Shown: in pieces, positions 20,917 through 27,883 of the stretch
Layout: every line of letters starts with the position of its first letter
Position numbering within the stretch: position 1 is the stretch's first letter
NCBI GenBank assembly: GCA_947473355.1
Contig: CANJCQ010000005.1
Coordinates: forward strand, 1 to 64,000
Origin: Sphingomonadaceae bacterium
Lineage (GTDB): Bacteria; Pseudomonadota; Alphaproteobacteria; Sphingomonadales; Sphingomonadaceae
Length of the DNA: 64,000 nt
Reading direction: 5' to 3'
Translations under genes and position numbers: made by a program
Notes under the pieces: model-generated
What the model was told of the DNA's origin: nothing
What the model saw: the letters and a program-made list of their open reading frames with translations, nothing else
Databases searched by the model: none

Positions 20917-21975
20917 TCACATGGCAGCAATCCGCACCGCACCCTCGCACATCTCACCAATCACCGCCGCCCGGTCAAACCCCGCCGCCCGGATGCAGTC
21001 CATCGCCGCAGCCACACCTTCCGGCGCCACTGCCACCAGCAGGCCGCCGCTGGTCTGCGGATCGGTCAGCAGGTCGCGCTGCCACTCTGCCAGTTCCGGC
21101 GAAAGATCGGCTTCGTGGCCATAACTCGCCCAGTTGCGGTCTGAGGCGCCGGTGCGGGTGCCGCTGCGGGCGAGATCGGCAACGCTTTCCAGCAGCGGCA
21201 GAGCGTCAAATCGGACCTTCGCGCCAAGGCCGGAACCGCGGCACATTTCCAGCCCATGGCCGAGCAGGCCGAAGCCAGTGACGTCGGTTATTGCGTGCAC
21301 TTGGGGCAGGGCGGCAAGTTCCGCGCCCACGGCATTGAGCTTTGTCGCCGAGGCGACCAGCGCGGCATAGGCCTTGTCATGCGCCACCGCGTCCAACGCT
21401 CCACCTTTCAGCGCCGCGCTCAGGACGCCGACGCCGAGCGGTTTGGTCAGGATCAGCACATCGCCGGCCTGTGCGCCCGAATTGCGCATCACCCGGTCCG
21501 GATGGACGAGGCCGATCACTGCGAGGCCATAGATCGGCTCGGGCGCATCGATCGAATGGCCGCCCGCCACCGGGATCCCCGCCTCGGCGCAGATCGAGGC
21601 GCCGCCCGCCAGAATCACGGAGACTGTCTCGGGCGCGATCTTGCCGAGCGGCATGCCGAGGATAGCGAGCGCCATGATCGGCCGCCCGCCCATGGCATAG
21701 ACATCCGACAGCGCATTGGCTGCGGCGATACGGCCGAAATCGCGGGCATCATCGACAATCGGCATGAAGAAATCGGTGGTGGCAATAACGGCCTGATCGT
21801 CGGAAATGCGGTAGACAGCCGCATCGTCGCCCGTTTCGGTGCCAACCAGCAGATCAGGGAAAGCCTGCATCTTGGGCATGGCCGCGAGCAGTTCGTGCAG
21901 CATGGCCGGCGAAAGCTTGCAGCCGCAGCCGCCGCCGTGGGAGAGCGCGGTCAGGCGGGTTTCGTATTCGGCCAT
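20917..21975 (-). CDS. selD: Selenide, water dikinase (selenophosphate synthetase), Cys form
   Basis: [69 protein letters not shown]. Confidence 0.96.
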
Positions 21976-22023
21976 GTTCAACTTTCTTGTCCGGTGGCAT
22001 AGGGGGCAGTGAGGAGGATCCCG

Positions 22024-23373
22024 TTGCACGCTGAAAACCCGCTTCGCAAGCTGCCCTCGGTGCAGCACTTGCTCGAATTGGCACCTGCGGCGGAAATGTG
22101 CGTGAAGCATGGGCGCGCGGCTGTGACCTCGGCGATCCGCGTGGTGCTGGGTGAGCTGCGCAGTGAAATTGCGCGCGGGGCCGGGCGGGTTGTGGACGGC
22201 GCGGCCATTCTGGAACGATGCGACAAGCTCGTCGCCGCCCGCCGCCGCCCCGGCCTGCGCCGGGTGATCAATGCCACGGGCATCGTGCTTCACACCAATC
22301 TCGGTCGTGCGCCGCTGGCAGCGGAGGCCATTGCGGCTATGGCAGACATCGCGGCGGGCTACAGCAATCTGGAATTCGATCTTGCGAGTGGCAAGCGAGG
22401 TTCGCGCACCGCTGCGCTGGAACCGCTGTTGCGCGAGGTGGCTGGCGCAGAAGCGGCGCTGGCGGTCAACAACGGCGCGGCGGCCATCCTTCTGGCGCTT
22501 TCGGCTTTGGCGGGCGGCGGCGAGGTGATCGTTTCGCGCGGCGAGCTTGTCGAGATCGGCGGCGGCTTCCGCATTCCCGATGTGATCATGCAAGGAGGGG
22601 CACGGCTGGTCGAGGTGGGCTCGACCAACAAGACAAGGCTGGCGGATTACCGCGAGGCCATCGGCCCGGAAACGCGGGTACTGCTCAAGGTCCACCAAAG
22701 CAATTTCCGCACCGTCGGCTTCACTGCGGAGACCGGGATCGGCGAACTTGCGGGGCTGGCGCGCGAACATGGCCTGCTGGTCGTAGCCGACCTTGGTAGC
22801 GGCCTGCTGCGGCCTTCGCCCGGCTCGCTTGAGCCCACTTTGGCCGAGGCGCTGGGCGCGGGCGCAGACCTCGTAACCTGCAGTGGCGACAAACTCCTCG
22901 GCGGCCCGCAGGCGGGGCTGATCCTTGGGCGCAAGGCGGCAGTCGATCCGCTGCGCAGCCATCCGCTGCTCCGCGCGGTGCGGCTCGACAAGATGACGCT
23001 GGCGGCGCTGGAGGCGACCCTTATGCTGCACCGCGACCAGCCTGATCGCGTGCCGGTGACCCGCATGCTGGCGCAGGGCGAGGCAGAGTTGCAGGCGCGA
23101 GCGGAACGGCTGCAAAGCTTGCTGGGCTACGGCAATTTGATCGCCAGCGAGGCCTACGCCGGCGGCGGTGCGCTGCCCGAGGAGCGCATCGCCAGCCGCG
23201 CGCTGGCGCTTGATCTGCCTATGGGGGCGGATGCAGTAGCTGCCAAGTTGCGCGAAGGGGCGCCTGCCGTGGTTGGCCGGATCGCCGATGGCCAGCTTCT
23301 GATCGACATGCTGACTGTCTCCGACGCCGAGCTGCCCGCTCTGGCTAAAGCCCTCAAGGCTGTCCTGGGGTGA
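22024..23373 (+). CDS. selA: L-seryl-tRNA(Sec) selenium transferase
   Basis: [51 protein letters not shown]-lysine motif; SD gaggagg before TTG 22024. Confidence 0.95.
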
Positions 23374-25187
23374 GCCGCAGCACTGTCGGCGTGATCGGCC
23401 ATGTCGATCACGGCAAGACCGCGCTGGTCCGTGCGCTCACCGGGCAGGAAACCGACCGCCTGCCCGAGGAAAAGGCGCGCGGGATTTCCATCGCGCTGGG
23501 CTTTGCGCATCTCGATGAGGCAGTCGACCTGATCGACATGCCGGGCCACGAACGCTTCGTGCGCACGATGATTTCGGGCGCCACCGGCATCGATGCTGTC
23601 CTGCTGGTGGTCGCGGCCAATGAAGGCGTGCAGCCGCAGACGGTCGAGCATGTCGAGATTGCCGGGCTGCTGGGGATTGGCCGCGCGCTGGTGGCAGTGA
23701 GCAAGTGCGATCTGGTGGAGCCGGGGGTGGCGGAACTGGTTGCGGCGGAGGCCTTGGAACTGCTTGAGCGCAGCGGGTTAGCTCCCCTCCCGCAAGCGGG
23801 AGGGGTTGGGGGTGGGCCAGCGATGATGGTTGCCCACTCACCCACCCCTAGCCCCTCCCGCAAGCGGGAGGGGAATTGCGGCGCAATCCTGACATCGGCA
23901 GTTTCCAATCAAGGCATCGCCGAACTCCGCCAAGCCCTCCGCGCCCTTGCCGAGCACCAGCACTCTCGCCCTGCCGATGGTTCCACCTGGCTCCCCATCG
24001 ACCGCGCTTTCGCGATCCCCGGCCATGGCCCTGTCGTCACCGGCACCTTGCGCGGGGCGCCGCTCAGCCCCGGCGATGCGCTCGAACTGCTGCCTTCGCG
24101 CCGCAAAGTCCGGGTCCGTGCCTTGCAGGTGCATGGCGCAGCGATCATGTCTGCCCAGCCCGGCCAGCGGGTCGCGGCCAACCTGCGCGGGGTGGAGCTG
24201 GGCCAGCTGGCGCGCGGCATGGCGCTGGCTGCGGCAGGTGCACTGGAGGCGGCGGATTGGCTGACCCTGGCCCTGCGCTCAGTCCCCGAATCGCCCGCGC
24301 TCAAGAACGGCGCGCGGATGCGGGCGCTGTTTGGCACGCAGGAGGCCGAGGCGCGGCTGCGGCTGCTGGATCGGGATGTGCTGGAGCCGGGCGAGGCATG
24401 CTTTGCCCAGTTGCGGCTGGCCTCACCAGCAGCCATTCCGGCGGGGGAACATGTCATTCTGCGCCGCGCTTCGCCTGCACTGACTTTGGCGGGTGGGCGC
24501 GTGCTGGAACTCGAAGCGCACCGGCTGCGGCGGCATGATGGCGCGGTGCTCGACTGGCTTGAGCTGCTGCGCGATGGCTCACCCGAAGAAGTGATTGCCG
24601 CCGAAGTGACGCGCGCGGGAGAAGTTGGAACCACTGTCCAGCACCTCGCGCGGCTGACCGCGCTGGCGCCTGCCCGCGTCGAGGAACTGCTGCAAGTCCT
24701 GCCGGTCGAAGTCAACCGCGCAGGTGCTGTGGTGAGGCAGGAGGCGGCGCAGAGCCGCAGGCGCCTTACCCTGCGCCCCGATCCCGAACGTGCCCGCGCC
24801 GATGCGGAGCGCGCAACCGAGATCGCCGACTTGCTGCAGCCAGCCGGGCTGACCCCGCCGCTGCCCAAGGTACTCATCATCGATGCCAGTTCGCACCGCG
24901 CGGTCGAAATGCTGCTGCGTGACGGGACGCTGATCCGCGCCGTGGACCGCGATAAAGGCAAGGAGTTGCTGTTCCACCGCGATGCGATTGCAGCGGCGCG
25001 GCAGTTGTTGTCGCCCTTGCTTGGGGCGAAAGACGATGGGGGCATACTGGTCAGCGAGATATGCTCCGCGCTGGGGATCAGCCGCAAGTTCTGTATGCCG
25101 TTGCTCGATCATCTCGACACGGTGCGGTTTACCAGACGGGTGGGGGATCGGCGGGTGGCGGGGCAGGCAATGCGCGAGGATAGTTGA
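23370..25187 (+). CDS. selB: Selenocysteine-specific translation elongation factor SelB (with internal REP-encoded insert)
   Basis: [50 protein letters not shown]; 4-bp overlap with selA; C-terminal winged-helix region. Confidence 0.95.
23784..23873. repeat. REP/BIME inside selB: two identical 22-nt palindromes CCCCTCCCGCAAGCGGGAGGGG
   Basis: Perfect copies at 23784-23805 and 23852-23873, flanked by inverted TTGGGGGTGGG / CCCACCCCTAG. Confidence 0.95.
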
Positions 25188-25242: not shown

Positions 25243-26154
25243 GTGGCCAGACCACTCAAGAATTTGTGCGAAGTCGCGGTAATCGGCGGTGGCCTTGCTG
25301 GCCTCTCCGCTGCCCGCCATGCGGCTCGCCTCGGGCGCCTGGTGACTTTGTTCGAAAGCAGCGGCATCTATGGCGGGCAGCTGGCGACAGTCGATCATGT
25401 CGACGGCCTGCCGGTGCCGGGCGCGTTCTCCGGGCAGGATCTGGCGATTGATCTGCTGGAGCAATGCCGCAAGGTCGGGGTGCAGGTGATCGAGGCGCAG
25501 ATTGACAAGCTCGATGCGGGCGAGCGGCTGGTTCTGACAGACTGGGAAGGGCAGGCCCATACACCTGAAGCGGTGATCGTCGCCTCGGGCGCGACCTTGC
25601 GCAAGCTGGGTGTGCCGGGCGAGGAGCAGTTCACGGGTCGCGGTGTGTCGCGCTGCGCCAGTTGCGACGGCGGGTTTTATCGCGACATGGATGTGGTCGT
25701 GGTCGGCGGCGGCGATGCGGCGGTGCATGAGGCGCTGGTGCTGGCGCGGATGTCGCGCATTGTGATCATGGTCTGCCGCAGCCCGCTCAAGGCTAGCCGG
25801 GAATACATCAACCGACTCGACGCACGCGAGAATGTGCGCTTTGTCTGGGACAGCGAAGTGGTGGAAGTGCTCGGTGAAATGAAGGTTTCAGGGGTGCGGC
25901 TTCACAATGTTGTCAGCGGGGCAGAAAGCGAGATTGCGGCGTCGGGCGTTTTCCCGTTCATCGGTGTCGAGCCCAACACCATGTTCCTGCCCGCCGCCAT
26001 GCGCGAGGCCAGCGGCCATATGGTGAGCAGGGATCCGCGCATCATCGCTGTCGGCGCGGTTCGCGCGGATTATGGTGGCATGGCGGTGCAGGCGATGGCA
26101 GAAGGAGTCGATGCGGCGCAGGCCGCACACATGATGCTGAGAAATGGAGCGTAA
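25243..26154 (+). CDS. Thioredoxin-reductase-like FAD/NAD(P)-dependent oxidoreductase (CASC redox centre)
   Basis: VIGGGLAGLSAARHAARLG, YGGQLATVDHVDGLPV, SRCASCDGGFYRDMDVVVVGGGDAAVHEAL; GTG start with gggag SD. Confidence 0.88.
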   Translation: MARPLKNLCEVAVIGGGLAGLSAARHAARLGRLVTLFESSGIYGGQLATVDHVDGLPVPGAFSGQDLAIDLLEQCRKVGVQVIEAQIDKLDAGERLVLTDWEGQAHTPEAVIVASGATLRKLGVPGEEQFTGRGVSRCASCDGGFYRDMDVVVVGGGDAAVHEALVLARMSRIVIMVCRSPLKASREYINRLDARENVRFVWDSEVVEVLGEMKVSGVRLHNVVSGAESEIAASGVFPFIGVEPNTMFLPAAMREASGHMVSRDPRIIAVGAVRADYGGMAVQAMAEGVDAAQAAHMMLRNGA

Positions 26155-26155
26155 C

Positions 26156-27883
26156 ATGGCGGAGAAAAGCGGCGACTATGCCGTCGTCTGGCCGAGCGGC
26201 GAACGCCGCCTCAAAGTGCGTCCCCTGGCGCGCCGGCTCGATACGCTGAACGGCAAGAAAGTTGCGCAGCTGTGGGACTATCTGTTCGCAGGCGACGAGG
26301 TATTCTCTGCGCTCGAAGCCGAGATGGCCAAGGCTTATCCGCAAATCGAATGGGTATCATGGCGCGAATTCGGCTCGACCCACGGGGTCAACGAGAAGGA
26401 AGTTCTCGCCTCACTGCCGCAGCGCTTCAGGGAAATGGGAGTTGATGCAGCCATAAGCTGCATGGCCTGTTGAGGCTCCTGTACGCCCGCCGTGCTGCGG
26501 GCTGCGGAAATTTGCGAAAGAGCCGGGTTCCCGACCTCGTCGCTGGTCTGCGAGGGTTTCCTGGGCCAGGCGGCGGCGACTTCGGTTGGCCTCGGCATGC
26601 CAAACTTGCCGGTGGCGACCATTGTCGGCCATCCCGGCGCGCAGAATAACGAGGAAATCCGCAGGTTCGCCGCCGAGGTGACCGCGCGCGAAGTAATCGA
26701 GAACCTGACGGTCCAGCCCGACGAGATCGTCTTCGGCGAAGAGCCGGGCGAGCGCGACATCGTCTTTACCGGCAGCTTCGAGGATGTGAACGAGTTCTTC
26801 CTCGAAAAGGAATGGAGCGACGGCCTGCCGATTGTCCCGCCGACGCTGGAGAAGATCGAGAAGTTCCTGAGCTTCACTCCCCGCAAGGCCGATGAGTGCC
26901 TTGGCATCGCCTTGCCCGCCAGCCGCGCGGTAACGATCTGGGCGGTGGCGGTCAATGGCGTGATGGCGGGTTGCCGCCCTGAATACATGCCGGTGCTGGT
27001 TGCGCTTGCCGAGGCGATGTGCGATCCGGTCTATGGCGTCCAGCACAGTGGTAACACGCCGGGCGCCGAAACGCTGATCATCCTGAATGGGCCGATCATC
27101 AAGGACCTGAAATTCAACTACACGCAAGGCGTGCTGCGCGATGGCTTCCAGCCGAACACCAGCGTGGGCCGGTTCTGGCGATTGGCCTTGCGCAACATGG
27201 CAGGCTTCCTGCTGCACAAGACAGACAAGGGCACTTTCGGCAACACCTTCCGCGTCGTGCTCGCTGAAAACGAGGATGCGCTGGCGGCGATCGGCTGGCC
27301 GTCAAATGCCGAGGACATGGGCTTCAGGACCGGCGACAACACCGTCACCATCACACGCCTCACCGGCGGCGATGTCATGCCTTCGGTGACGGGTTCAACG
27401 CCGGAACGGATGATGCCCTATATTGCCGACGGCGTCGCCAAGGAGACCGGCTGGGAAATCGCTTTCACCACCGGCGGGCTGACCCACGGCACCTTGCGGC
27501 CGGTGCTGGTGCTCAGCCCGATCCTCGCCGAGACCATCGCCAAAGCCGGGTGGAGCAAGCTCGACGTCAAGCAATACCTTTATGACCATGCCCGGATGCC
27601 GGCCTGGCGGGTAGAAGAGTTTGCCGAGAAGTGGACCGAGTTCAAGATCGTCTCGCTGCAGCATCAGTATAATATCGGAAATCTTTCCAAGGACTTCGCC
27701 GAGTCCGATGATCCGAACCGTATGGTGCCGATTGTGGTTGATCCGCGCGATTTCATGGTGCTGGTCTCGGGCGATCCGCTGCGCACCAATGCACAGGCCT
27801 TCGCGCACAACGGCTATCTCGGTTTCCCGGTGGCGAAGCAGATCGCGCTGCCCGAGGATTGGGACAAGCGGGTGGGTAAATAG
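26156..27883 (+). CDS. UGSC-family selenoprotein, read through in-frame TGA at 26471-26473 (Sec)
   Basis: ORFs 26144..26473 and 26492..27883 share one frame. The codons between them read TGC ATG GCC TGT TGA GGC TCC TGT = C M A C U G S C, with continuous protein-like sequence on both sides and sel genes immediately upstream. Confidence 0.9.
26485..26502 (+). promoter_or_regulatory. Candidate bacterial SECIS hairpin
   Basis: GCCCGC-cgtgct-GCGGGC, a perfect 6-bp stem with 6-nt loop containing GU, 11 nt after the TGA. Confidence 0.65.

Follow-up and report, generated by a model that had tools for sequence, protein, structure and literature searches.

A fused UGSC selenoprotein in a Sphingomonadaceae genome appears distantly related to the selenocysteine enzymes of clostridial glycine and proline metabolism

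The UGSC selenoprotein family was reported in the GOS survey with 255 selenocysteine (Sec) sequences (PMC2398784) and is reviewed in PMC13188914. Few selenoprotein families are as frequent in aquatic samples, yet it has no assigned function. The survey also describes a fusion of UGSC to a conserved domain, Unknown_1, that also occurs alone in a few organisms (PMC2398784, Figure S1A). In glycine and D-proline reductase the selenolate attacks a carbon of the substrate and a thiolate breaks the resulting Se-C bond, leaving a selenenylsulfide (PMC10298544). GrdB-like enzymes of this kind cut C-N bonds (PMC10298544) and C-F cleavage of fluoroacetate has been proposed (PMC10838667).

We analysed a 64,000-nucleotide stretch of DNA (the window) in which the open reading frames 26156-26470 and 26474-27880 share one frame and are parted by a single TGA. 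A preliminary description made from these letters had taken the two frames for one UGSC gene with the TGA decoded as Sec and with Sec genes upstream. The same-frame arrangement, the six codons between the TGA and the next GTG and the junction AISCMAC-U-GSCTP are all as claimed, and selD (divergent), selA, selB and a thioredoxin reductase (TrxR)-like gene were found upstream. The features of the locus are as follows.

20917..21975, minus strand: selD, selenophosphate synthase, Cys form GGGCGCK (AIRS domains and sequence motif)
22009..23373, plus strand: selA, L-seryl-tRNA(Sec) selenium transferase (TIGR00474, 512 bits over the cut-off)
23370..25187, plus strand: selB, Sec-specific elongation factor (TIGR00475, 272 bits over the cut-off)
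25243..26154, plus strand: TrxR-like flavoprotein with a CASC active site and a putative GTG start
26156..27883, plus strand: whole selenoprotein gene encoding 575 residues, of which Sec is residue 106; UGSC domain plus fused partner domain; stop TAG at 27881-27883
26156..26770, plus strand: UGSC domain (PF24696), related to the GrdB Sec domain by hhalign
26471..26473, plus strand: TGA read as Sec, the U of U-G-S-C
26485..26502, plus strand: bacterial SECIS-type hairpin GCCCGC-CGTGCT-GCGGGC with GU in the loop, 11 nt after the TGA, with frozen synonymous sites
26771..27880, plus strand: C-terminal partner domain, matching no Pfam or NCBIfam family

The start codon is most likely the ATG at 26156 rather than a start at 26144; a GGAG lies just 5' of it and 105 residues precede the TGA, which sits in the context M-A-C-U-G-S-C-T-P. 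The Pfam model PF24696 matched residues 14-189 of the read-through protein without a break at 93.2 bits (cut-off 25), and the piece before the TGA alone scored 31; the proposed family assignment thus holds at the level of Pfam. The stricter NCBIfam equivalog NF041046 gave 38.1 bits, below its cut-off of 125, so by its sequence the protein belongs to the UGSC family and not to that equivalog. On this evidence 26156-27883 is read as one selenoprotein, a new member of a family and fusion already known in outline since 2008. As the preliminary description had said of standard gene callers, ORF rules split the gene into two fragments here, and the stricter NCBI model misses the subgroup that contains this fused gene.

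The C-terminal domain had been described as being of unclear function and fused to UGSC. The fusion was borne out, but the domain is no orphan, as other bacteria have it as a separate partner gene next to a stand-alone UGSC gene. Stand-alone UGSC genes, found in Betaproteobacteria and in one SAR202 genome, carry a TGA at the motif G-G-U-G-S-C-T-L, and the stand-alone C-domain gene adjoins such a Sec gene at five loci (L015, L018, L020, L022 and L023). The window's own genome contains two more UGSC/partner pairs as separate genes in the Cys form, at C55 2600-4332, where stop and start codons overlap, and at C30 33783-35473. Given that stand-alone partner genes lie beside both Sec and Cys UGSC genes, the fusion joins two long-standing operon partners. 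A tree of 37 UGSC domains groups the fused proteins in one clade (support 100/99), with a Sec subclade inside it (97/88); on this tree Sec and Cys were exchanged at least three times. The underlying alignment has 19 Sec and 18 Cys rows, with U/C-G-S-C at the site. One of the Cys pairs of the window's genome sits among dehydrogenase and degradation-type genes. Genes for TctC-type tricarboxylate receptors lie near stand-alone pairs of Betaproteobacteria (L015, L016, L021, L022 and L023), at only 5 of 10 stand-alone loci. Their presence is a possible hint at a carboxylate substrate, but such genes are common in those bacteria.

The partner domain has invariant residues that include W-x-D-G-L-P-x-x-P-T, M-A-G-C, N-G-P, I-G-R and E-N. 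Sequence searches of the PDB with the read-through protein and with profiles of both domains found no relative, and viral contigs gave no homolog. The pyruvoyl-forming family PF09338 (GrdE/PrdA) had no match in the domain, and an alignment with GrdE gave E 0.56, with no relation to GrdE/PrdA or GrdB; a pyruvoyl mechanism is therefore not supported. Class I fumarate hydratases occupied the top Foldseek ranks for the partner domain (best E 3e-3, TM 0.29). This candidate was dropped, since fumarases of the same genomes reached only E 0.23 with hhalign, within the range of shuffled profiles; the fold of the domain thus has no secure match.

A stand-alone UGSC protein gave sub-threshold matches to the NCBIfam models of GrdB, GrdH, PrdB and GrdF (E 0.016-0.1), all at the Sec site, and GRDB proteins were therefore gathered for a profile comparison. 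This set consists of Chloroflexota proteins only, as Pseudomonadota genomes gave just three short relatives. In hhalign the profile of the 37 UGSC domains aligned with it (probability 96.1%, E 3e-9) so that the two Sec sites coincided, and the alignment ran on to the C-terminal P-H-P segment. The fused proteins alone gave 92.9%, the stand-alone proteins alone 95.5%, and with 22 columns around the Sec masked the comparison still gave 65% and E 6e-5. These E-values are for single comparisons, not database E-values, and lie far outside the controls, where the best of 60 column shuffles reached E 0.05 and the reversed profile 0.07. Two of the Chloroflexota proteins read V-A-T-U-G-S-C-N-R-C-G-A-T-I-S-K-E-I-E-R. 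The profile searches gave no match to PF07355 (GRDB), the relation being visible only by profile-profile comparison; judged by these alignments, UGSC is a relative of GRDB and not a member of it. The UGSC half thus seems distantly related to the Sec enzymes that clostridia use on glycine and proline. The relation is not stated in the few papers found that name UGSC, in a search of largely open literature.

Three Chloroflexota loci (L098, L101 and L102) belong to genomes rich in GRDB and GrdE paralogs, of which several have an in-frame TGA; one genome alone has 18 matches to PF09338. These paralogs are a reservoir of unstudied glycine-reductase-like selenoproteins.

The TrxR-like gene stands beside the fused gene in all 12 cases with Sec, even where the sel genes lie elsewhere, and its C-A-[ST]-C motif is conserved; it is absent from the 1.5 kb on either side of the Cys-fused genes. 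The window's TrxR-like protein scored 217.7 bits with TIGR01292, below the equivalog cut-off of 343. It has CRSP at the place of HRR, the usual signature of NADPH-dependent thioredoxin reductases. This flavoprotein is the probable reductant of the selenoprotein. Given the Sec, the Cys three positions further along and an adjacent CxxC flavoprotein, a catalytic cycle like that of GrdB can be inferred, and by analogy the fusion is probably a selenium-dependent reductase for the reductive cleavage of a small carboxylate.

The adjacency of the TrxR-like gene would also suit a different function, in which the Sec read-through is real, UGSC is a thioredoxin-type thiol/disulfide or peroxide oxidoreductase, and the likeness to GrdB reflects shared fold ancestry and not chemistry. 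The survey speaks of a 'likely Trx-like fold' (PMC2398784), and thiol oxidoreductases make up most prokaryotic selenoprotein families (PMC13188914). However, the hhalign match to GrdB superimposes Sec on Sec, and in the AlphaFold model, which is of low to middling confidence (mean pLDDT 72 for the chain), the UGSC domain looks like an alternating beta-alpha, Rossmann- or flavodoxin-like domain. A Foldseek search with the full model gave no significant match, and no thioredoxin was among the 50 PDB matches listed. We consider a thioredoxin-type function rather unlikely.

That the TGA is decoded as Sec is indicated by comparison across genomes. Eleven further genomes have the fused protein, always with a single TGA at this codon: eight of the same genus carry it full-length, a ninth has it divided between two contigs, and it is present at L010 and L014. 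All 12 Sec homologs continue in frame past the TGA and keep the hairpin, which is more than chance would give. The positions 26474-26492 are conserved both as protein (GSCTPA) and as RNA. Homologs had been predicted to show U or C at the TGA position, and this is the case, with Sec in the 12 fused proteins and Cys in distant fused homologs (GCC-GAC in L034 and L035, GSC-GTC in L037) as well as in stand-alone Cys homologs. In comparisons with seven relatives dN/dS was about 0.1-0.2 before and after the TGA, and purifying selection acts on both sides of it. One part of the earlier reading that was not upheld concerns the CxxC ahead of the Sec. Within the supposed redox cluster C-M-A-C-U-G-S-C the U-G-S-C is conserved, but the first Cys is Ser or Gly in L013, L014, L030 and L031 and therefore has no part in a conserved redox cluster.

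The hairpin was present as described, with its 11-nt spacing and the GU in its loop. Its 18 nt have a folding energy of -11.2 kcal/mol; of the 977 TGA triplets on the plus strand of the window, only 3 are followed at 8-14 nt by a hairpin of this strength. In the hairpin, codons +5 Pro, +6 Ala, +7 Val and +9 Arg show no synonymous difference among 12/12 Sec homologs, and the codons flanking the hairpin vary freely at synonymous sites. Leu +8, the single variable codon inside it, changes a loop base (C/U), and the GU is kept in all 12. Among 54 four- or sixfold degenerate codons with an invariant amino acid six are frozen, and four of these six lie in the hairpin (hypergeometric P 2e-4). In the Cys homologs the stem is not preserved. 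An Rfam scan of the window gave no match over threshold, SECIS included. The hairpin and its synonymous freezing identify it, at the level of sequence, as a SECIS-type element just downstream of the UGA.

The Sec machinery follows the TGA form closely. A tRNA-Sec with anticodon TCA (78 bits) is on contig C54 of the window's genome; its absence had been named as a finding that would count against Sec. Among 200 related genomes selA was found in 10/10 with a Sec-form UGSC and in 1/190 others (Fisher P 5e-16), the lone selA genome without the Sec form being an assembly that is 64% complete. Matches to tRNA-Sec reached 67-81 bits in 11/11 selA genomes and at most 53 bits in 13 genomes without selA. 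In the genomes of L014 and of the stand-alone Sec loci selA was over the cut-off in 6/7 and present as a fragment in the seventh. The proteins with PF00384 in the 11 selA genomes have no internal TGA, and a Sec-type formate dehydrogenase was accordingly rejected as the reason for the machinery. Apart from the splitting of the locus by standard ORF rules, little speaks for the TGA as a true stop between two genes or in a pseudogene, which is most improbable against the shared TGA and low dN/dS, the Pfam match spanning it, the Cys that distant fused homologs have in its place, the frozen hairpin and the strict co-occurrence with selA and tRNA-Sec. Decoding as Trp or another amino acid, for which no evidence was found, is hardly credible given that distant homologs carry Cys and never Trp at this position and that the sel genes and tRNA-Sec occur together with the TGA form.

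In six genomes selA, selB, the TrxR-like gene and UGSC lie together as in the window. In four (G083, G093, G043 and G013) selA is elsewhere and of another type, about 49% identical, and the TrxR-like gene still adjoins the fused gene. Two selA types of about this identity thus occur within one genus (L055-L059, in G093, G083, G043, G041 and G013), one beside UGSC and the other at a different place in the genome, next to another selD; this suggests that the Sec genes were acquired at least twice or were replaced. The tRNA-Sec gene lies about 34 nt from the fused gene in G119 (contig C29) and about 1.1 kb from it in G010 (contig C31), so that in some strains the Sec kit and its selenoprotein form one compact cassette. 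In the window's genome a tyrosine-integrase-like gene (L078, G000:C54 349-1869) lies directly 3' of the tRNA-Sec gene, the position that an element with selC as its attachment site would take; a repeat of the tRNA-Sec end was not found within 16 kb at L078. SelB has an insertion of about 29 residues between GTPase segments (window 23783-23871) that is absent in L009, L012 and L014. Its DNA contains two perfect copies of CTCCCGCAAGCGGGAG (23787 and 23855), and a small palindromic repeat element therefore seems to have entered the essential gene selB in frame.

Taken as a whole, the explanation that we favour, with moderate confidence, is a single Sec read-through protein in which a GrdB-related UGSC domain and its fused partner carry out a selenium-dependent reductive cleavage. 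By the comparative evidence SelB and tRNA-Sec would insert Sec at UGA 26471, helped by the hairpin that follows. By profile comparison the N-terminal UGSC domain is a short relative of the C-terminal GrdB domain that carries the Sec in glycine, sarcosine and betaine reductase, and the partner domain would probably bind or activate the substrate. The selenolate may then attack the substrate, a small molecule that probably bears a carboxylate, at a carbon or sulfur, the Cys of U-G-S-C may resolve the intermediate to a selenenylsulfide, and the TrxR-like flavoprotein could re-reduce this directly or through a thioredoxin. It is possible, though we lean against going so far, that UGSC and its partner form a new class of reductive-cleavage enzyme: a minimal GrdB type with no pyruvoyl subunit, a partner of new fold and a flavoprotein reductase of its own, in bacteria that are not known to ferment amino acids. 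These Novosphingobium strains may then keep their whole Sec machinery for this enzyme.

If the relation to GrdB is true, UGSC, so far presumed to be a redox protein of thioredoxin-like type, becomes a likely substrate-cleaving enzyme. In addition, the fused gene provides a clear example of a genus in which the Sec trait accompanies a single known selenoprotein (families examined: UGSC and PF00384), which is useful for the question why bacteria keep or lose Sec decoding. So far as the literature searched goes, the relation to GrdB, the evidence from the split pairs and the strict link to the TrxR-like gene and to the Sec trait of the genus are new.

Compared with known systems, the window protein shares with the UGSC family (PF24696, NF041046) the U-G-S-C site, the domain length, the exchange of Sec and Cys and the Pfam match, and differs in its fused C-terminal domain, its score under the NF041046 cut-off and its own clade. 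Like the UGSC/Unknown_1 fusion it joins UGSC to a conserved domain that also occurs alone; the two architectures are probably the same, with Unknown_1 as the C-terminal domain, a match made by the main-text description of the survey and not by alignment. The GrdB-like proteins of monofluoroacetate dehalorespiration in Cloacibacillus (PMC10838667), likened here by description and not by sequence, are relatives of GrdB with a proposed C-X cleavage of a small carboxylate, but come from anaerobes. GrdB is longer, about 435 residues against about 185 of UGSC, and GrdB/PrdB (PF07355) work with a GrdE/PrdA-type partner, whereas the partner of UGSC is from another family and its host is an aerobic-type Novosphingobium. 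The two nevertheless have in common a homologous Sec domain with UxxC, the helix and strand that follow it (EIERAGIPT) and the C-terminal 'PHP'.
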